A stretch of DNA of 64,000 nt from contig JALDRJ010000002.1 of NCBI GenBank assembly GCA_031315865.1, positions 1,090,001-1,154,000 of the forward strand, given 5' to 3'. Origin of the DNA: Nitrospirales bacterium (GTDB lineage: Bacteria; Nitrospirota; Nitrospiria; Nitrospirales; UBA8639). Positions 5,889 through 21,079 of the stretch are shown piece by piece (within the stretch, counting starts at the first letter, position 1; each line of letters begins with the position of its first letter). The translations under genes and the position numbers were made by a program. The notes under the pieces are model-generated. The model ran no database searches. It had not been told where the DNA came from and worked only from the letters and a program-made list of their open reading frames with translations.

Positions 5889-6090
5889 GGAAGATTCATC
5901 CTATCTTTCTTTAATCTACTACAAGGGATGGCAGCTGTCAATTTCCTAGTTAACGTTATCCACGTCTACCTTCAATGCAGCTAGCTAGCCAGGATCGAGG
6001 AATCTCATCTTCCTATCACAATACGTGATGTTTCATGCTTGCAGCGAAAGAAATATCAGGTAGCGTACGCCATGCCTCACTGGATTCAGG

Positions 6091-6186
6091 GTTACTCCAA
6101 CAACAGGGAGTCAGTCGTGCGGCCCACAATCCGCCACAATCCGGTAGAGGAGATTTACCGATTAAAACCGTATGTGAATTCGGAAT
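6091..6186 (+). pseudogene. degenerate copy of the maf 3' end
   Basis: Conceptual translation gives LLQQQGV in one frame and then NPVEEIYRLKPYVNSE in another. The intact maf ends with LLEQQGM followed by NSAEEIYRVKPYANW. The DNA also aligns (shared AACAACAGGG, then GAGGAGATTTACCGA against GAGGAAATTTACCGA). A small insertion between the blocks shifts the frame, and no start or active-site region remains. It is best read as a diverged remnant of maf or of a maf paralogue left after the VapBC region was inserted or rearranged. Confidence 0.6.
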
Positions 6187-9023: not shown

Positions 9024-9655
9024 AGGGTAGTGTGCGGAAAACTTTATTATTGCCCCTCTTGTGTTCCTTCATACTTGTAACTTCGAGCTGTTTGGCTTTA
9101 GATCTTGAGGTAGACCAACCAACAGATGTGCTGACAATCAGTCACCACAAGACCGTAGACCTGACCCATACACAAGTCAAAGAAATTTTGCATCATGCAT
9201 TTATGGCTCTTCAAAAGGATCCAGACATAGATGATGACCATAATTGCAGGATGAAGTTTAAGAAGTTTGCGATAAAAGAGTTTGATTCAGATGACACACC
9301 GGCAACTGTCACGAGTGCAGAAGACATGCAATTACTAGCAAGAGAGCCAGGACACGTAAAAGTAGTCGGAGCCATAAATTGGAATTGCGGAAAGATTACC
9401 GCCGACGAAGGCAGTGTGTGGGGCTGCTCTCCAAGAGGAGGAAATTTCATCGTGGTGCAACATCAAGTTGACCCGGATAATCCTGCTACAGACGGTGTGT
9501 TGTGGCTTCACGAACTGGGACACAATGCTGGCCTTCCAGATATTAGACAGAAGGATGTCTCTCATATGTCAAACAAGCCCGTAATGACTGAATGGATTGA
9601 CCCGACTCATACAGTCCTTAATGAATTAGAATGTCGTTATTTTGCAAGCCTGTAG
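9020..9655 (+). CDS. exported metzincin-like zinc metalloprotease (putative)
   Basis: 211 residues with an N-terminal signal sequence. The key motif is HELGHNAGLPD (His164, Glu165, His168, Gly171, Asp174), which fits the metzincin pattern HExxHxxGxx(H/D), with Asp as third zinc ligand as in snapalysin-type enzymes. Met183 or Met189 after it could be the Met-turn. Four cysteines in the mature part suggest disulfides. Overall similarity to a named family is not evident, so activity is inferred from the motif. Translationally coupled to the upstream lipoprotein, which might be its partner, inhibitor or substrate. Confidence 0.7.
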   Translation: MKGSVRKTLLLPLLCSFILVTSSCLALDLEVDQPTDVLTISHHKTVDLTHTQVKEILHHAFMALQKDPDIDDDHNCRMKFKKFAIKEFDSDDTPATVTSAEDMQLLAREPGHVKVVGAINWNCGKITADEGSVWGCSPRGGNFIVVQHQVDPDNPATDGVLWLHELGHNAGLPDIRQKDVSHMSNKPVMTEWIDPTHTVLNELECRYFASL

Positions 9656-10787: not shown

Positions 10788-10982
10788 ATGAAACTTCGCA
10801 TGTTGATTATCGCCCCACTGATCGCAACAATATTTACAGGCTGCATGAAAATCAATATTTCAGTTGGCTCCGGAAGTGGTGGAACAGGTTTTGATCCCGG
10901 TTTAAGATCACGAGTTAGCTGCGCTAAAGATATGTATAATCAATGTATCCCCAATCATCCTCCCGGGTGCACATGCTCATAA
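10788..10982 (+). CDS. small Cys-rich lipoprotein-like peptide (NPPGCxC family, copy 1)
   Basis: 64 residues with a strong GGAGG ribosome site. An N-terminal hydrophobic stretch ends in a lipobox-like IFTGC. A Gly/Ser-rich linker follows, then a Cys-rich tail: C-x7-C-x2-N-x-PPGC-x-C. The same cysteine spacing and PPGC core recur in the 64-residue peptide at 16804-16998 beside the PatA/PatG-like genes. The conserved tail could be a modified or disulfide-bonded core peptide. Function is unknown; its lipid-anchor signal distinguishes it from copy 2. Confidence 0.7.
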   Translation: MKLRMLIIAPLIATIFTGCMKINISVGSGSGGTGFDPGLRSRVSCAKDMYNQCIPNHPPGCTCS

Positions 10983-11018
10983 AAAAATCTAACTTGAACC
11001 CCAATTTGTTTGCCAATA

Positions 11019-13910
11019 ATGGACAATACCCGCAGCTACTTGATTGTTCGCAGTGTCCTTATCAAAATACACTTCTTTAAGTTTTTGTGCGTTGGGCTCC
11101 TAATAGTACCTGCTCAACTACTAAACCTGAGCTCCGTTAGTCGAGCGCAAGTTACATTAGATGGAACACTTGGTATAGGTACACCCGGCCAAGAGGTTGG
11201 CCCAGGAAATCTTCCTAGTGGAAAATCTCTTGCCAATGGTGCTACCTCGACTGACCATCTCATAACCGATAGTCTAGGAGCGAGGGTAGGCGATAACCTC
11301 TTTCACAGTTTTAGCAACTTTAGTATTGGTGACGGGAAAAGTGCCACTTTTACTGGACCGGATTCCATTGCCAACGTTCTGAGTCGCGTAACAGGGCCAA
11401 ATGCATCTATTATTAACGGAACTCTCGCGTCCACCATTGATAATGCAAACATTTTTTTATTGAATCCGGCAGGAGTAATTTTTGGGCCAAACGCTAAACT
11501 TGATGTAAAGGGAGCTTTCTACGCAACTACCGCAGACTTTGTTCAACTAAACCAAGACGGCGTATTTTATGCTAGCCTTGGTGAAGACAGTGTTTTAACT
11601 TCAGCGGAACCTGAAGCCTTCGGATTTCTAGGAAACACCCCTCCTCCGTTATCCCCTACAAGTCCTGCATCTGTTTTTGTCGAAGGATTGAGAGTCCTAA
11701 ATGAGAATTCTGTCACTGTTATTGGCCGTGACGCGATAGCCGGAACAGAAGTAGTAGACGGTATAGCTATCAACGCAGGGAAGTTACAGAATCCCAACAG
11801 TCACGTACACTTGGTGAGTATTGGAGCATCGCAATCACCAAATGTGGCCCAAGTCGCGGTGAATATCGATACTCTAGCTGTGCGCGGATTAACGTCTCAG
11901 GACGAAGTTACCCAAAGCCAGATCCAGTTAGGTGGAATTTCTCTTTCGCAAGAAGCTCAAATTGATACTAGCGGTGTCCGAGGAGGGGGTGTGGTAATTC
12001 GAGGCGGGAAACTCACTCTAAGCGAATCATCGATTTTGGTAAATTCAACCGGAATTATAGATGAATCTATAGATGAATCCTGGACTGCCGTGGATATAAG
12101 GACAGATTCGTTAATTATTAAAGATGGGGGATCGATTGAGGCTGAAGCCTTTGGTTCTGTGGACGGAGGAGATATCGTCTTACTAGTCAACGAAAGTTTC
12201 CAAATTCGTGAAGGCGGTCTAGTGATAACGAGTGCCGTTAGTGGATCAGGTAATGCAGGAGAAATTAAGGTCCATGCGGATGAAGTGGTGATCTCTGGAG
12301 TTCTGACAGGAATAGCGAGCCAATCATTGTCAGATGGGAACGGAGGAGATATCAATATTACTACAAGTCGTTTGGAAATGGATACAGGAATCTTATTCTC
12401 ACAAACTTCTGGCTCCGGGCATGCGGGAAACATTGAGGTAACGATTCAAGAAGGTGAGTTACCCACAACATCAACCCAAGGTGAAATATCACCTTCTGAC
12501 CTACAGATTACCGGCAATGCTTCCATCACTACGCAATCAGAGATAGGATCAACAGGAGATGCGGGTGAAATTAGACTGACAGTTGGAAAGGAGGTAGGTA
12601 AAGCGGGAGAGCTAACTTTCGAAGGAGGAGATGTGTCAATTCGTGGAACTATTTTCTCCTCAATTGAAGGAACTGGCGCAGGAGGTAAGATCCAACTCAA
12701 GGCAGGTAATTTAGATTTATTTGGTTCTAGCCTCATACAAGTTCAGAACCTTAACTCAAGCCAAGTTCCAGGGAACATTACCTTAATCCTAACTGGAAAT
12801 TTGTCTGTAGAGGAATCCTCGACCATTAACACTTTTGCGCGTAATTCAGCTCCTGGTGCGAACCTGAACATAACGGCTAAGGAAGTCAATCTGACAAATA
12901 GCAGTGTCGTATCCACGACCACTCTAAGTGATGGACCGGGAGGGAATCTCACAATCATTGCTGAAAACCTCCAAGTAACGGACAAAGGCGAGCTCACTTC
13001 TGAGGCCAGATTAATTCCAAACGAAGCAATACCGTCTGGAAATGCCGGCAACATTAATGTTGAGTTGACTGGCAACTTACTCGTGAGCAAGGAGGGAAAG
13101 ATCGCTGTTAGTACAACGACCGCAGGGAATGGAGGAAACATTACTATCTCTGGATCTAATCTCTCATTAACCGGCGGCGCTTCTGTGACTGCTGAAAGTT
13201 TTTCTCAATCTAATGACGCCGGCAATGCTGGCGATATATCTCTCGAAGGTCAAAATTCCATTTTCATTGAGAACAGTACTGTCACAACAAGGGCTCAGAA
13301 TGCAGTTGCGGGAGATATTAAATTAAAATCTGAAAATCTTATTCAAATTATCGATAGTAGCATTATTAGCGAGGTGCCTGAAGGTTCGGGGTCAGCTGGG
13401 CGAATTAATATTGACCCTCAATTTATCATTGTAAAGAATAGTTTAATCGACAGTAGCGCGAATTTTGGCGATGGTGGAGATGTGACGTTTGAGGCAGATG
13501 CGGCGATTCTGATTGATCCTTTTAGTAAGATTGATACTTCTTCCCGGTTCGGCGGCAGTGGAAGAATCAATATTCGAGCTCCAATCCAAAACTTAAGTGA
13601 GACGATCGCGTCTTTACCTGAGGAGGTTTTAAAAGTTGCCGGATTGTTTGCAGAACGCTGTGCAGCTCAAAAAGACGGGAAATTTAGCAGCTTTACCCAA
13701 GGCACCCGCGGTGGTGGGCTTCTTGGGGTGTCCAATTATTTATCGAGTCCTCTATCGTTTTCGACTTCCAGTTCCGAGGCCAGCTCAGCCACCGCATCAG
13801 TGACAGGCTCAAAAGATGCGCTACAAGAATTTACCTGGAAGCTTTTCAATCCCGAAAAGACTGAAGACATCATCGAACACTGCGCCTCAATTCCCCTCTT
13901 CCGCTCCTGA
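11019..13910 (+). CDS. filamentous haemagglutinin-type exoprotein (TpsA), copy 1
   Basis: About 963 residues. After a long signal sequence (to around SRAQV) comes a TPS/haemagg_act domain with NLFHSFSNFSIGDG, NVLSRVTG and NPAGVIFGPNA, the region recognised by a TpsB transporter. The rest is a long Gly/Asn/Thr/Ser-rich beta-helix with repeats such as GNAGNINV, GDGGDVTF and GGNITI. The C-terminus has two cysteines in a block (FAERCAAQKDGKFSSF) shared with copy 2. Start uncertain: ATG at 11019 is chosen over TTG at 11010, and neither has a clear ribosome site. It would be secreted by two-partner secretion, but no TpsB gene is in the window. Confidence 0.88.
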   Translation: MDNTRSYLIVRSVLIKIHFFKFLCVGLLIVPAQLLNLSSVSRAQVTLDGTLGIGTPGQEVGPGNLPSGKSLANGATSTDHLITDSLGARVGDNLFHSFSNFSIGDGKSATFTGPDSIANVLSRVTGPNASIINGTLASTIDNANIFLLNPAGVIFGPNAKLDVKGAFYATTADFVQLNQDGVFYASLGEDSVLTSAEPEAFGFLGNTPPPLSPTSPASVFVEGLRVLNENSVTVIGRDAIAGTEVVDGIAINAGKLQNPNSHVHLVSIGASQSPNVAQVAVNIDTLAVRGLTSQDEVTQSQIQLGGISLSQEAQIDTSGVRGGGVVIRGGKLTLSESSILVNSTGIIDESIDESWTAVDIRTDSLIIKDGGSIEAEAFGSVDGGDIVLLVNESFQIREGGLVITSAVSGSGNAGEIKVHADEVVISGVLTGIASQSLSDGNGGDINITTSRLEMDTGILFSQTSGSGHAGNIEVTIQEGELPTTSTQGEISPSDLQITGNASITTQSEIGSTGDAGEIRLTVGKEVGKAGELTFEGGDVSIRGTIFSSIEGTGAGGKIQLKAGNLDLFGSSLIQVQNLNSSQVPGNITLILTGNLSVEESSTINTFARNSAPGANLNITAKEVNLTNSSVVSTTTLSDGPGGNLTIIAENLQVTDKGELTSEARLIPNEAIPSGNAGNINVELTGNLLVSKEGKIAVSTTTAGNGGNITISGSNLSLTGGASVTAESFSQSNDAGNAGDISLEGQNSIFIENSTVTTRAQNAVAGDIKLKSENLIQIIDSSIISEVPEGSGSAGRINIDPQFIIVKNSLIDSSANFGDGGDVTFEADAAILIDPFSKIDTSSRFGGSGRINIRAPIQNLSETIASLPEEVLKVAGLFAERCAAQKDGKFSSFTQGTRGGGLLGVSNYLSSPLSFSTSSSEASSATASVTGSKDALQEFTWKLFNPEKTEDIIEHCASIPLFRS

Positions 13911-14540: not shown

Positions 14541-15416
14541 ATGACTCCCCGACAACTCATCAATCTCCATCCACTGATGGAGCAAACCAGTGGCCGGCCT
14601 GAAGTCCTCGTCGGCCTCATCGACGGCCCGGTCATGATGCCGCATCCGGCATTGACCATAAACAACATCAGAGAACTAGCCGGCGCGCAAACAGGAACCT
14701 GTACGATTCCCAACAGCTGGGCCTGTCTTCATGGCACGTTTGTCGCCGGAGTACTCAGTGCGACGCGCGAATCCGTGGCACCGGCTCTCTGTCCAGGCTG
14801 CACGCTGCTTCTTCGACCCATTTTTCCGGAAATCACCCAGGAACATCCCACCATGCCACGCACCACGCCGGACAATCTGGCCGCCGCGATCTGGGAAACC
14901 GTTGCCGCGGGAGCTCGCGTGATCAACCTCAGCCTTGCCCTCGAGACGCACACATCACAGGGCCACTATCAACTAAAAGACGCACTCGATTTCGCGGCCA
15001 GCCGGAGCACGATCGTCGTCAGCGCGACCGGCAATCAAGGAACCGTCGGGGGAAGCACGCTGACGCAACATCCGGCGGTCATCCCAGTAGCCGCGTATAG
15101 CCAGCAGGGGCGGCCATTGAACCTGTCCAACATCGGAGCCTCAATCGGCAGAAACGGACTGGGAGCGCCAGGAGAAGAAATCGTGAGCCTCGGTGCAGGA
15201 AATTCGTCACACATGCTCACGGGAACCAGTGCGGCCACACCATTCGTCACGGGCACCATCGCTTTGCTCTGGTCGCTCTTCCCCGCCGCGACGACCGCGC
15301 AAGTCAAAATGGCTATCACGAGTTCCACCGCACCAGGACGAAGGACCGTCGTCCCACCGCTCCTGAATGCAAACACCGCAAGAACAAGACTGCAACACCT
15401 TGTAGAAAGGAATTAG
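14541..15416 (+). CDS. PatA-like subtilisin family (S8) peptidase
   Basis: 291 residues, essentially a bare subtilisin domain with no signal peptide, so probably cytoplasmic. The triad is complete: Asp28 (VGLIDGPV), His64 (LHGTFVAG) and Ser230 (LTGTSAATPFV), with oxyanion Asn165 (SATGNQG). The opening (NLHPLMEQTSGRPEVLVGLIDGPV), VAPALCPGC and INLSLALET match the style of PatA/PatG proteases, which cleave leader peptides in cyanobactin maturation. Four nt separate it from the CGGC gene; a PatG-C-like gene follows. The substrate is unknown, and the Cys-rich peptide at 16804 is the obvious candidate. Confidence 0.85.
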   Translation: MTPRQLINLHPLMEQTSGRPEVLVGLIDGPVMMPHPALTINNIRELAGAQTGTCTIPNSWACLHGTFVAGVLSATRESVAPALCPGCTLLLRPIFPEITQEHPTMPRTTPDNLAAAIWETVAAGARVINLSLALETHTSQGHYQLKDALDFAASRSTIVVSATGNQGTVGGSTLTQHPAVIPVAAYSQQGRPLNLSNIGASIGRNGLGAPGEEIVSLGAGNSSHMLTGTSAATPFVTGTIALLWSLFPAATTAQVKMAITSSTAPGRRTVVPPLLNANTARTRLQHLVERN

Positions 15417-15420
15417 GCCT

Positions 15421-15633
15421 ATGGAAGACATCCATGCCCCAGACGAAACTCGTCAAGAGCCAGCAGCGCAACCCTACCGCGTCCGCCTTCCAGGGTTCAT
15501 AAGCGACCAAGACATTGGACTGGGCGACATGATGAAAAAAGCCACCTATGCCATGGGCATCAAACCCTGCGGGGGCTGCCACCGGCGCGCCGCCGCGCTC
15601 AATCGCTGGATGGTCTTTTCCGGCAGACGGTAA
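15421..15633 (+). CDS. small CGGC-motif protein of the PatA/PatG-like cassette
   Basis: 70 residues, starting 4 nt after the protease stop with AAAGGAATTAGG upstream. The N-terminal half is acidic and Pro-rich; the C-terminal half is the conserved-looking GLGDMMKKATYAMGIKPCGGC followed by HRRAAALNRWMVF. The CGGC could bind a metal, form a redox disulfide or be a modification site. Three roles are possible: an accessory (adaptor) protein of the cassette, a metal-binding factor, or an additional precursor whose substrate part is the C-terminus. I recognise the motif style but not a named function. Confidence 0.75.
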   Translation: MEDIHAPDETRQEPAAQPYRVRLPGFISDQDIGLGDMMKKATYAMGIKPCGGCHRRAAALNRWMVFSGRR

Positions 15634-15694
15634 GGACAGAGAAACACCAATATCATTCTTCTCACTTTAACGTTCACACATGAAAGGAGACATC

Positions 15695-16657
15695 ATGCAA
15701 GAAAACATGACGCAGGAAACAACACCGCAAGGACCTGGCCTAACGACAGATGTATATGGCCCCACACCAGCCAGGCCAAGTGGAGCAAACACCGTCGTGG
15801 CATCGCTGCAAGAAAAAGAACAGAGCACCTGTCAAACCTGCCAAACGCCCGCCGTGACCAACGGCCAACAGAATCCCAACTTCGTCTACGCCATCGGGTC
15901 CATCGAACCGCGCTTTCCCATGCCCTCCATCGAAAAGGAATGCCTGCAAGCCGTCTCGCGCATGAACGGAACATCGGGCCTCTCCGACCAACAAGTTTTG
16001 AAAAAAGTCCTCTCCCACCCCAGCAACCGGTACCTGGCGCGGCAAATGTGTTGGGTGTTTACCGTGGAAGGGCTGGAAACCTACCTCCTGCGCCCCCGCG
16101 ACGCCACCGATCTCGAACAACTCGTGGAAGCCATCCGCCCAGAGCCCGACAACAACGACATCGACGTCGTCATCGGCTATCGCGGCAGCCTCGCGCCACC
16201 CGAAGCCTGTAACGGCCTCATTCTGCCCATGGTCATGATCGAGCAGGTGTACTCCTTCGACATGAAATCCCTGCTCAAGTCGATGCCCACGCCTGAAAAG
16301 ATGTCCCCCGGACAATTCTCGCCCATCGCGCAGGAACTCTACAAACAAATCATCCACATGGCCGACAACGCCGGAGCCACCGACGAACACCGGGCCATGA
16401 ATTATCTGGCCGTCCGGTACGACGCCATCTACACCGTGTGCGCGGAACAATATCGAAACAACTATTCCTTAAACAGCGTGCAAGTCCGCCCCTCGCGGCT
16501 GAGCGCCGCCCGCAAGGTCATGGATGCCATCTTCACGTTTACCCATCGCGAAACGACCGTCACCCAGAAATGGTTCACCCGCGTGGACGTCACGGAAGAA
16601 TTCCCATACCTCGTCAGCCCCCTCTCGCCCTACTACGTCTATGAGCAGCAGGTGTGA
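15695..16657 (+). CDS. PatG C-terminal-domain-like protein
   Basis: About 320 residues. AGGAG seven bases before the ATG at 15695 decides the start over the ATG at 15680. A flexible N-terminus with CQTCQTP is followed by a domain resembling the C-terminal part of cyanobactin protease PatG: FVYAIGSIEPRFPMPSIEKE, NRYLARQMCWVFTVEGLET, YLLRPRD, then a DVVIGYRGSLAPPEACNGL block. That domain of PatG is not the catalytic macrocyclase and its role is poorly known. Here it is a separate protein without any protease domain, beside a separate PatA-like protease, like a split PatG. Third codon positions are strongly C-rich, unlike the flanking TpsA 1. Confidence 0.72.
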   Translation: MQENMTQETTPQGPGLTTDVYGPTPARPSGANTVVASLQEKEQSTCQTCQTPAVTNGQQNPNFVYAIGSIEPRFPMPSIEKECLQAVSRMNGTSGLSDQQVLKKVLSHPSNRYLARQMCWVFTVEGLETYLLRPRDATDLEQLVEAIRPEPDNNDIDVVIGYRGSLAPPEACNGLILPMVMIEQVYSFDMKSLLKSMPTPEKMSPGQFSPIAQELYKQIIHMADNAGATDEHRAMNYLAVRYDAIYTVCAEQYRNNYSLNSVQVRPSRLSAARKVMDAIFTFTHRETTVTQKWFTRVDVTEEFPYLVSPLSPYYVYEQQV

Positions 16658-16803
16658 AACCAGGAGCGACGAGTCATGAAAGAGCAGGGGAGAATTGAAT
16701 CATAGGTGATAAGCAAATCAACACCAGATCGGGACCGGTGCGTCAGCCACCCTGATTGTGTTCTACCAGTAAGGTTGTTGAATGAGAAAAGGAGGAGAAG
16801 ATT

Positions 16804-16998
16804 ATGATACCAGGATTCACAGCAGAACAATCACTTAAGAAGAAAAGTCCGTTCTATCGCAACTCAATTCTCAACGGTTCGTCACGTCTGAACCACAGCG
16901 TGGTTCCAGCAGGAACTTGCTGCAATTACGATAGTGCAGGTAATTGCCTAACGAATAACCCTCCGGGATGTAAGTGTTTTCCACATTGTATGTATTAA
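16804..16998 (+). CDS. small Cys-rich peptide (NPPGCxC family, copy 2), candidate precursor
   Basis: 64 residues with a strong AAAGGAGGAG ribosome site, 146 nt after the PatG-C-like gene. The N-terminal ~35 residues are polar and lysine-bearing with no signal sequence, like a RiPP leader. The tail is Cys-rich: CC at the start, then C-x7-C-x2-N-x-PPGC-x-C followed by FPHCMY. It shares the C-x7-C-x2-N-x-PPGC-x-C spacing with the lipoprotein-like peptide at 10788. Placement and architecture make it the best candidate substrate of the PatA-like protease. It is not known whether it is modified, and no YcaO, radical-SAM or lanthipeptide enzyme is nearby. Confidence 0.7.
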   Translation: MIPGFTAEQSLKKKSPFYRNSILNGSSRLNHSVVPAGTCCNYDSAGNCLTNNPPGCKCFPHCMY

Positions 16999-17071
16999 CC
17001 GAATTATAGTGTAACTCGACAAATTTGGGTTCCCCTCAGGGTGGCTGACGCACCGATTCTGAAAACTGTTA

Positions 17072-17371: not shown

Positions 17372-17635
17372 ATGAGCCGACTCTCCATTGAATTGACTGA
17401 GGAACAGCATCAACGCCTGAAAGCTATGGCAGCATTGCAAGGCAAGAGCATTAAGGACTACGTCCTTGAACGATCGCTCCCGGATTTACCGGATCGTCAT
17501 TCTATGACCGATGAAGAAGTCCTATACCAGCTTGAACAATTTCTCAAACCTCGGATTGAAGCCGCTGAACGCGGTGAGCGTGCTTCCCGAACTCCTCAAC
17601 AAATCCTCGCTGATGTTCAGCAGGATTTAGATTGA
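17372..17635 (+). CDS. RelB/ParD-like antitoxin
   Basis: 87 residues. N-terminal beta strand plus helices (RLSIELTEEQHQRLKAMAAL, then GKSIKDYVLERSL) fit a ribbon-helix-helix DNA-binding domain; the acidic C-terminal half would wrap the toxin. AAAGGAG precedes the ATG. Its TGA overlaps the toxin ATG by one base (TGATG). Confidence 0.8.
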   Translation: MSRLSIELTEEQHQRLKAMAALQGKSIKDYVLERSLPDLPDRHSMTDEEVLYQLEQFLKPRIEAAERGERASRTPQQILADVQQDLD

Positions 17636-17943
17636 TGCTTTCTTATGATTTAACGCCAGCTGCTGAGGTAGACCTTGAAGAGATTGCCCGTTACACGACG
17701 CTGGAATGGGGACCGGAACAAGCCACACGCTACATCGACAAACTCCACGAATGTTTTCAAAAGATTGCGAAACAGCGAGTCACAGGTAAAACATTTTCCA
17801 AGCGCTTTCCGAACCTATTCGTGACTCGTTGTGAACATCATTACATGTTTTATCTGCATGTGAATCAAACTAAGCCTGTCATCATTGCTGTACTACACGA
17901 ACGCATGGATATGCTTGCCCGTCTTAAAGACCGTTTAGATTGA
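17635..17943 (+). CDS. RelE/ParE family toxin
   Basis: 102 residues with the RelE/ParE layout: YDLTPAAEVDLEEIARYT, then WGPEQATRYIDKLHECFQKIA, then a FVTRCEHHYMFYL strand and VIIAVLHERMDMLARLKDRL at the end, a typical ParE C-terminus. ParE-type members poison gyrase, RelE-type cleave mRNA on the ribosome; the AVLHERMD end favours ParE. Translationally coupled to the antitoxin. The pair lies between the peptide cassette and the second TpsA. Confidence 0.85.
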   Translation: MLSYDLTPAAEVDLEEIARYTTLEWGPEQATRYIDKLHECFQKIAKQRVTGKTFSKRFPNLFVTRCEHHYMFYLHVNQTKPVIIAVLHERMDMLARLKDRLD

Positions 17944-18136: not shown

Positions 18137-21079
18137 ATGAAGACTTGCCATCTCCCCAATCCGAAACGCTCTGGACTCTTTCCCTTACTTGTTCTCGTAT
18201 CCTCTGTTATCACGCTGCCTTGCCTCTCAACATCCGCCTCGGCGCAAGTCGCCACGAATATTACGCCATCTGGACTCGCTACGAACGTGGCTCCTCCCAA
18301 TGGGCCCGTCACCGATATCACTGGGGGCACACGACCAAAGACTACGCAGGGCATTCCCGGCCCGAACCTCTTTCATAGTTTTGGAGAGTTTCATGTCGGA
18401 GCAGGCGATGTCGCGAATTTCTTGAATGACCGCGGCCTGCCAACCCAAAACATCTTGAGCAGGGTCACGGGCGGCAATCCATCCAATATATTCGGCAGGA
18501 TTCAGACGACAGATTTTCAAGAAGCCAATCTCTTTCTGATCAATCCGCAAGGAATCGTCTTCGGTCCCAACGCGTCGCTCGATATCGGTGGCGCCTTCTA
18601 CGCCAGCACCGCCAATCGGGTGATGCTGGAAGACGGGCGTGTGTTTACTGCCATACCAGGTTCAGAAGACGCGCTGCTTACTGCCGCCTCGCCGGAAGCG
18701 TTTCACTTCCTGGGAAATACTTCACCCGTTCTCGCGCCGGACGCCGAAGCCGCGATTCTTGTCCAGGGATTCGAGTCGCTACAAGGCAGTGGGGTATCGT
18801 TCATCGGCCGCGAGGCCACCGCGAATCAACACACGGTGGAAGGCGTCACAATCAGGAACGGGACCGTGCAGACTCCGAACGGAGCGGTCAACATCGTGAG
18901 CATTGGCGGTCCGCAAGCAGCCGATGTGGCCCATGTCTCCGTCGATAAAACAACACTCGACGCGAGCGGAATCAACGCGCAAGACGGGCCGACCCAAGAT
19001 TCTCCCTCGTTGGGCGGCATCGCGATCAACCAGGGAGCTACGATCGTGACCAGTGGAACTCGCGGAGGCATTATTACGATTCGGGGTGGAGATCTCACGA
19101 TAGAGGACGCGAACATCGCAGCCAATATAACGGACATCTCGGCCAATGATTCAATGATAGTCGCCGGCAGGGGCATCGACATTGACGTCACGAATGGTGT
19201 GTCGATCACCAAAAGCGCCCGCCTCGAAACCAACGTTACTGAAACAGCCCCCCAAGGAGTAGAATCTGGAGGGATTCGCATCGATGCTGGCCATGTCGAA
19301 ATTCTGGGTGACCCGGAAGCGGCCATAGAAGATCGAACAGGAATACGATCCGAAGTGCTCCCAAATAGTCCAGGAGACCAAAGCGGAGACATCCACATAA
19401 CAACCGGATCAGCGCGAATGCGTGGCGCGGTGCTCCAAACAAGCGGAAATGGTTCCGCAGATGGAGGAAGTATCATCCTGAATGTCGGAGATGACCTTAT
19501 ATTGGAAGAGAGCGCTCTACTCCAGTCACAAACATTCGGGTTGGGCAAGGCTGGGGATATCGATATCATCGTTCAAGACGGGCAGATCATTAATAGAGGA
19601 AACATCACAGCTCAGTCAGTGGCAGTGGCAGGCGGTGGAGGAGGGGGCAATATCAGTATCACAGTCGGCAAAGAAATCTTGTCTGGAGGAATCACAACCT
19701 TTGAGGGTGGAGATATTTTGTTAGATGAACGCGGAGGCATCTCCACCTTTCTTGCGCAAGGTGGGCAAGGAGGGAATATCGACATCAAAGCCAAAAATTT
19801 GGATTTACGAGATAGTGGTAGAGTCGACGTTCAGTCATTCTTTTCTCCCATCTCCGATCAGACCACTGGAAGTCTGACCATTGACCTCACTGGAAATCTG
19901 AATATGCGTGGTGCTGGAAGCGGAATTGGTGAGCAAAGTGAGATTACGGTCATCTCTCGAGGGGGAAGTCCTTCAGGCGGAGCCACGATTACGGCGCAGG
20001 AAGTGAACATCGGTGCGTTTAGTACCATCAGCACGCAAAGTCAGAACGAAGGGAGGGGCGGGGACTTAACGATCAGCGCCGATACATTACGTGTCGCAGA
20101 CGGCGGTTCCATCACCTCGAGCTCAGGCAATCCCTTCTTTATTGCCGGCTTTGCCCCGCCGTCTGCATCCATCGGCGACGCTGGAGATATTGCTCTTGAT
20201 GTGAATGGGCCTCTGGTCATCAGCAACGGCGGCGAAATCCAGGCCAGCACAAGCTCTGATGGCAATGGAGGAACGATCAATATTGTGGCCGATCAGGTGA
20301 GCCTGGCCGGTGGATCGACCATTTCCGCCAACAGCACGTCCAGGAAGCCTGAAGCCGGTACTGCCGGATCTATCGATGTCACGGCCAACGGGACGATTCA
20401 AGTCTCTGACAGCTCCCTGTCGACGAATGCCGCGAATGCGCTGGGTGGAAACATCGAGCTCACAGCCGGTGATCTCATTTACATCACCAACAGTGATGTG
20501 ACAACCCAAGTGCTGGAAGGTTCGGCTACTGCGGGCGAGATCGACATCGACCCCGATTATGTGATCATCCAACGCAGCAACATCTTAAGCACGGCCGTCT
20601 TTGGCGATGGAGGACCGATCACCATCACGGCCAATGCCGCAATCTTAGTCGATCCCACGAGTGTCTTAGATGCTTCGTCGCAATTTGGCGGGGCCGGAAT
20701 CATCAATATTCAAGCGCCGATTCAAGAGTTGAGCGGCACGATCGTCCCCTTGCCCGCGAAAATCACGAACGTGACGAGTCTCTACGGGGAGGCTTGCGCT
20801 TCACAGAAAAACGGGCGGTTCAGCAGCTTTGTCAAAACGACGGATTCTGCACTCTCTCCAATGCCAAGAGGATTACTCACCAGCCCCTTAGCCTTCGATA
20901 TCGAGGGCTCTTCACAGCCTGCCTCTCGCCACGCCAAAACATCCGCCACTTCTTCGCGGCTGACTCACGATTCTCCAGAGATGACCGGATTCCCGATCTG
21001 GAAAATCAAGACCGGCACCCTTCCCATCCTACCGTTTCAGGTCTGTGCCCGAACGGAAGACTATAGCCAATCCCATTAA
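18137..21079 (+). CDS. filamentous haemagglutinin-type exoprotein (TpsA), copy 2
   Basis: 980 residues. Signal peptide to about SASAQ; then a TPS domain with NLFHSFGEFHVGAGD, NILSRVTGG and NPQGIVFGPNASLDIGGAF; then a long beta-helix of Gly/Asn/Ser/Thr-rich repeats. It ends with a Cys-containing block (YGEACASQKNGRFSSF) like that of copy 1 and a short hydrophobic tail. The whole protein is paralogous to TpsA 1 but its gene is markedly GC-richer. AAGGAAACGG lies before the ATG. Proteins of this kind are exported through a TpsB barrel and act as adhesins or surface-layer components. No TpsB gene is visible. Confidence 0.9.
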   Translation: MKTCHLPNPKRSGLFPLLVLVSSVITLPCLSTSASAQVATNITPSGLATNVAPPNGPVTDITGGTRPKTTQGIPGPNLFHSFGEFHVGAGDVANFLNDRGLPTQNILSRVTGGNPSNIFGRIQTTDFQEANLFLINPQGIVFGPNASLDIGGAFYASTANRVMLEDGRVFTAIPGSEDALLTAASPEAFHFLGNTSPVLAPDAEAAILVQGFESLQGSGVSFIGREATANQHTVEGVTIRNGTVQTPNGAVNIVSIGGPQAADVAHVSVDKTTLDASGINAQDGPTQDSPSLGGIAINQGATIVTSGTRGGIITIRGGDLTIEDANIAANITDISANDSMIVAGRGIDIDVTNGVSITKSARLETNVTETAPQGVESGGIRIDAGHVEILGDPEAAIEDRTGIRSEVLPNSPGDQSGDIHITTGSARMRGAVLQTSGNGSADGGSIILNVGDDLILEESALLQSQTFGLGKAGDIDIIVQDGQIINRGNITAQSVAVAGGGGGGNISITVGKEILSGGITTFEGGDILLDERGGISTFLAQGGQGGNIDIKAKNLDLRDSGRVDVQSFFSPISDQTTGSLTIDLTGNLNMRGAGSGIGEQSEITVISRGGSPSGGATITAQEVNIGAFSTISTQSQNEGRGGDLTISADTLRVADGGSITSSSGNPFFIAGFAPPSASIGDAGDIALDVNGPLVISNGGEIQASTSSDGNGGTINIVADQVSLAGGSTISANSTSRKPEAGTAGSIDVTANGTIQVSDSSLSTNAANALGGNIELTAGDLIYITNSDVTTQVLEGSATAGEIDIDPDYVIIQRSNILSTAVFGDGGPITITANAAILVDPTSVLDASSQFGGAGIINIQAPIQELSGTIVPLPAKITNVTSLYGEACASQKNGRFSSFVKTTDSALSPMPRGLLTSPLAFDIEGSSQPASRHAKTSATSSRLTHDSPEMTGFPIWKIKTGTLPILPFQVCARTEDYSQSH

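Follow-up and report, generated by a model that had tools for sequence, protein, structure and literature searches.

Cyanobactin precursors carry the recognition sites G(L/V)E(A/P)S and AYDG, and PatA is the enzyme that removes the leader in these pathways (PMC10885120). The PatG/PatA DUF is found in every cyanobactin pathway characterized up to 2014, although its role was given as an open question; the PatG DUF has a novel fold for which no role was found, and it did not bind the PatE precursor in the one study that looked at binding by such a domain (PMC4259220). In S. scabies, a PatG-DUF gene, SCAB_66631, lies beside four short peptides, from which a 2020 review drew no conclusion (PMC7369419). 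In other peptide families, the partners of Nif11/NHLP and proteusin leaders include YcaO and LanM enzymes (PMC10783134).

The window, that is, the whole stretch of 64,000 nucleotides analyzed here from a Nitrospirales bacterium, contains four same-strand genes at 14541-16998; their coordinates were re-found as an earlier note on this DNA had placed them. On the forward strand, a PatA-like S8 protease of 291 amino acids with the triad D28/H64/S230 (P0001, 14541-15416) is followed after 4 nt by a gene for a protein of 70 amino acids with the pattern GLGD...GIKPCGGC..RAAALNRW (the CGGC protein, P0002, 15421-15633) and, after another 46 nt, by the gene for a free PatG DUF protein of 325 amino acids comprising PatG_D and PatG_C (P0003, 15680-16657). 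The fourth gene encodes a precursor peptide of 64 amino acids (P0004, 16804-16998), in which the leader MIPGFTAEQSL...VVPA precedes a predicted core. The source genome has a single PatG_C gene and YcaO was found nowhere in it, so that the absence of YcaO, first noted for the window, extends to the whole genome. No promoter-like site stood out at the locus.

The cassette shares with cyanobactin clusters a PatA-type S8 protease with intact triad, the PatG DUF (PatG_D/PatG_C) and an adjoining leader precursor with a hypervariable core. It differs in that the protease and the DUF are separate proteins, in the lack of a YcaO heterocyclase from the entire genome, and in the extra CGGC protein and the long Cys-rich cores; moreover, P0004 lacks G(L/V)E(A/P)S and AYDG sites, and the TIGR03895 scores are 107 for the S8 protease and 21 for the DUF, against a cut-off of 421. 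Since these scores are far under the cut-off and the cyanobactin cleavage motifs are absent, the cassette is not a cyanobactin cluster; most likely it is related to cyanobactin-type proteolysis, without cyanobactin chemistry. The S. scabies gene resembles it in having short peptides beside a PatG DUF and PatG homology in the DUF only, but, compared by description, it was reported as an ambiguous mining hit, with no leader, CGGC partner or family described (PMC7369419). The Nif11/NHLP and proteusin systems likewise use one conserved leader for many unrelated cores per genome; their leader sequence, however, is unlike the PGFTAE leader.

Proteins of the cassette

P0001 matches Peptidase_S8 in Pfam with 79 bits, over the cut-off, and is the only S8 protease in the locus; no signal peptide or prodomain is apparent in it. 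The triad Asp28/His64/Ser230 named in the earlier note is intact in 21 of 22 homologues. Among solved structures, its best match is the PatA protease 4h6w (E 1e-27), the PatG macrocyclase being weaker (5e-16), and because P0001 is thus nearer to PatA, by sequence comparison it is more likely to cut than to cyclize, transamidation being the less probable activity. Four cysteines (Cys 54, 62, 84 and 87) are invariant in the split class, in which protease and DUF are separate, and Cys 62 sits two residues ahead of the catalytic His. QhpE is an intracellular subtilisin-like protease for peptide maturation (quinohemoprotein amine dehydrogenase). P0001 is weakly similar to it, but at 37 bits it remains below the family cut-off of 165, and the genetic context of QhpE is unlike that of the cassette. 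A defence-system reading of P0001 was considered and rejected, as PADLOC gave only generic subtilase/IetS matches.

The homology of P0003 to PatG is genuine: in Pfam (PF18047 and PF18065), PatG_D scores 95 bits (cut-off 27) and PatG_C 110 bits (cut-off 25.9), and a profile comparison with the PatG-DUF crystal structure 4uvq gave an E-value of 2e-8. The earlier description of a free PatG-C-like protein was right as to the separate chain but too narrow, as the protein also has the PatG_D half and hence represents the whole PatG DUF. P0002 belongs to no Pfam family; the CGGC protein occurs in exactly 4 of 72,556 plasmids, and all four carry split PatG_C. Single-sequence structure predictions were of low quality (pLDDT 34 for P0003; pLDDT 63 and pTM 0.22 for P0002). 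In P0003, Cys 51/54 (a CxxC), Cys 124 and Cys 177 are invariant in the split class. These and the invariant cysteines of the S8 protease and the CGGC pair are mostly missing from the fused class; they may serve in zinc binding, disulfides or redox reactions.

This distribution of cysteines over all three machinery proteins (four in S8, CxxC plus two in PatG-C, and CGGC), together with cores that are 11% Cys, is what would be expected of a true modifying RiPP pathway, in which cysteines would be crosslinked, oxidized or loaded with metal by catalysis or templating through the PatG DUF and/or the CGGC protein, leaving the S8 protease only to trim at the end. Such a pathway is considered unlikely, although it is the best of the alternatives; the cassette contains no known modifying enzyme, the genome has no YcaO, no role was found for the PatG DUF, whose fold was reported to be novel (PMC4259220), and the invariant cysteines may be structural zinc sites or disulfides.

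The precursor gene and its surroundings

The peptide gene at 16804-16998 is preceded by AGGAGG, a clean ribosome-binding site (AAAGGAGGAGAAGATTATG). The predicted core of P0004, GTCCNYDSAGNCLTNNPPGCKCFPHCMY, has 28 residues and six Cys, with a cut point that we infer from the leader/core pattern. The peptide matches the leader profile A1 with an E-value of 4.4e-12, P0004 itself being one row of that profile. In Pfam, NCBIfam and PHROGs no family was over cut-off for P0004, and a sub-threshold Cys_rich_VLP match was the sole Pfam hit. Its core resembles that of the counterpart from a genome of the same genus (locus L040). In the window, a lipoprotein-like small ORF of 64 amino acids on the forward strand (10788-10982) ends in a tail, CAKDMYNQCIPNHPPGCTC / CIPNHPPGCTCS, that is weakly like the P0004 core (9 identical in 19 residues) and possibly represents the same core on a different carrier. 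The only match to P0004 in the genome contigs (locus L029) was attributed to chance; the frame at 6001-6102 reads LNGSSRLNTSVLP and lacks PGFTAE.

An inverted repeat flanks the peptide gene, with a left arm of 27 bp on the forward strand (16729-16755) and a right arm on the reverse strand (17036-17062); the arms are 89% matched and unique in the genome. A matching repeat pair surrounds the peptide gene of the same-genus genome (G204; L040, about 9059-9235), where TC is replaced by GG in one arm and GA by CC in the other, and therefore the arms change together. The repeat may mark an invertible segment or the end of a cassette, or it may form an RNA stem. It was also observed that two large exoproteins with TPS domains (filamentous haemagglutinin-type; 11010-13910 and 18137-21079) bracket the cassette and that a ParD/ParE toxin-antitoxin pair lies directly downstream of it (17372-17943).

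The leader family across genomes and plasmids

PatG_C, which served as the search bait in Nitrospirota, was found in 15 of 396 genomes of that phylum. When gene order was compared around these genes, as the earlier note had proposed, the order S8 - CGGC - PatG_C was seen to recur, followed by small ORFs starting with M-x-[MIL]-P-G-F-T-A-E-x-S-L. The same gene set is present on plasmids of Sinorhizobium mexicanum, Mesorhizobium sp. and Streptomyces sp., the PatG_C of the S. mexicanum plasmid being 56% identical. The four leader peptides of this plasmid are missing from the gene table of the record used, which may be why they drew no notice. In the fourth plasmid with a CGGC protein, from S. xanthophaeus (L055), PatG_C is followed after 12 nt by a variant peptide, MPTTQRIPGFRSD.... 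In total, the leader x-P-G-F-T-A-E-x-S-L...Y...V-x-P-Q was found in 68 ORFs at 19 loci (Nitrospirota and the Sinorhizobium, Mesorhizobium and Streptomyces plasmids), each of the 68 sharing its strand with a PatG_C gene, or the remnant of one, and lying downstream of it, with one to about ten precursors per locus and unrelated cores. No relative was found in phages and viral contigs. The earlier note had allowed for homologous loci without a conserved small peptide; the opposite was seen, in that nearly all split PatG_C genes, across three phyla, are followed by leader peptides.

Profile A1 matches 13 of the 396 Nitrospirota genomes, 12 of which are among the 15 with PatG_C (Fisher 2e-19), a co-occurrence that is partly by construction since the peptides that went into A1 were taken from the vicinity of PatG_C. 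This does not affect the near-absence of the leader from the other 381 genomes, its uniformity of strand and position, or the peptides outside the model, including that of the same-genus genome. The thirteenth genome (G341) was treated as a chance match (E 5e-5), having an internal stop and no PGFTA-like motif in its locus (L069). Across 374 kb of homologous loci, not counting the window locus, there were 32 occurrences of strict PGFTA[ED], versus 0 in order-1 Markov controls.

The conserved leader block consists of P-G-F-T-A-E-x-S-L and a Tyr seven residues further. About 30 residues past PGF, V-x-P-[QA] is clear in 50 of the 68 ORFs, and beyond this point conservation vanishes. Cysteine makes up 8 of 1781 residues (0.4%) before it and 327 of 2885 (11.3%) after it. 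Hence, the small leader-plus-Cys-core peptide noted earlier is present, but its conserved part is the leader and not the "PPGC" core. The cores are hypervariable and range from about 20 to more than 200 residues; a conserved leader and a hypervariable core beside a processing enzyme is the arrangement of RiPP-like precursors. Homologous precursors gave dN/dS values of 0.05-0.48 and are therefore real genes under constraint, subject to purifying selection. Three leader precursors (L037, 8004-8762; L046, 9510-10037; L047, 5738-6265) carry one or two Kazal-like domains each, that of L037, the one precursor of the three that was scanned, having a Pfam E-value of 2e-19, and at L039 one leader is fused to a CGGC module. 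By sequence, several cores resemble disulfide mini-domains of the extracytoplasmic kind, either Kazal or, judged by eye, similar to granulins or knottins. At L050, a PatG_C/CGGC/S8 locus without a PGFTAE leader, an ORF with granulin-like CCGGGCCPAGTTCCNGGCCPAGTTC repeats lies about 1.9 kb past PatG_C.

Single-chain S8-PatG proteins of another kind were found in three genomes (L030, L031 and L032). Scores were obtained for two of them, and both belong fully to TIGR03895 (711-724 bits against a cut-off of 421). The peptides next to these fused proteases (class B) have Cys in their tails and a leader of a second family, M[RK][LI]PxQSAGxxR; three of six contain [VIL].PQ (shuffle P 0.004). The split class and its single-chain relatives at L039 and L041 score at most 136 bits with TIGR03895 and form a separate branch. 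Leader type thus tracks protease type, PGFTAE going with the split class and M[RK][LI]PxQSAGxxR with the fused. Most simply, recognition would lie with the N-terminal block, and V-x-P-Q would be the region of the cut. The S8 protease is kept without the CGGC protein at L036, L038, L040 and L049, and PatG_C and CGGC are kept with no S8 within the fetched flanks at L035, L043, L047 and L055, another S8 copy being present elsewhere in the same genome for L035 and L047. As PatG_C is the constant component, present at every leader locus (in Nitrospirota it was also the bait), the pattern suggests that it may be the partner of the leader.

Probable leader-directed maturation of Cys-rich peptides

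As in the earlier note, the locus is still best read as a minimal peptide-processing locus of unknown product, and the leader peptides recurring beside split PatG_C support this. Specifically, the cassette is probably a leader-directed peptide-maturation system, in which the PatG DUF, with the CGGC protein, handles the leader and the PatA-like S8 protease cuts near V-x-P-[QA] to release a Cys-rich core. According to this proposal, the free PatG DUF protein, probably assisted by the CGGC protein, would recognize the N-terminal leader (xPGFTAExSL...Y); a cut at or near the V-x-P-[QA] leader/core junction would then be made by the bare PatA-like S8 protease, and the Cys-rich core, of about 28 residues with 6 Cys in the window, would be released. 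A single processing set would in this way suffice for all precursors of a locus, from one to about ten, even though their cores are unrelated. Any modification of the core, its redox state and its export route enter the proposal as putative features. Against maturation stand the four loci without an adjacent S8 (L035, L043, L047 and L055), the V-x-P-[QA] motif that is clear in only 50 of 68 ORFs, and the lack of a transporter conserved nearby, which leaves the export of disulfide cores unexplained; against the PatG DUF as leader handler stands the published lack of PatE binding (PMC4259220).

If the leader were mainly an export or targeting tag, with the PatG DUF/CGGC pair as a delivery factor and proteolysis secondary, the four loci lacking an adjacent S8 would be accommodated, as would the Kazal and other extracytoplasmic-looking cores and the similar core in the window that rides a lipoprotein-like signal (10788-10982). 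This is nevertheless judged improbable; ORF clustering across loci showed no transporter or modifying enzyme conserved nearby, only the cassette and the peptides recurring beyond local synteny, and most loci with the PGFTAE leader (class A) retain an S8 protease with intact triad. That the peptides regulate the protease (inhibitor/protease pairs, toxin-antitoxin-like) instead of being its substrates is likewise improbable, for although some leader ORFs bear domains of the Kazal type, which is known for serine protease inhibitors, and P0001 has generic subtilase matches in PADLOC, the majority of cores show no relation to any inhibitor, one protease may be accompanied by as many as about ten peptides, and conservation lies in the leader and not in the core, to which Cys is confined.

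More tentatively, and with rather more doubt than assurance, the maturation cassette may be a mobile, leader-programmed platform for disulfide-rich mini-proteins, including Kazal-type inhibitors, that was previously undescribed and has the free PatG DUF as its leader-handling subunit. No description of the PGFTAE leader was found in the open-access papers searched; a description in a subscription journal is possible.

The comparison turns a single suggestive locus into a repeated system. In it, the PatG DUF stands alone, without heterocyclase, oxidase or recognizable macrocyclase, and is the only part that accompanies the leader peptides in every case, which points to leader handling; the three-gene system makes this role directly testable. 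Through the leader family, many small Cys-rich proteins of Nitrospirota, rhizobia and Streptomyces also come to light, most of them unannotated, and the release of arbitrary cores from a common leader is a possible tool. If true, the platform reading would assign a function to the DUF of all characterized cyanobactin pathways.
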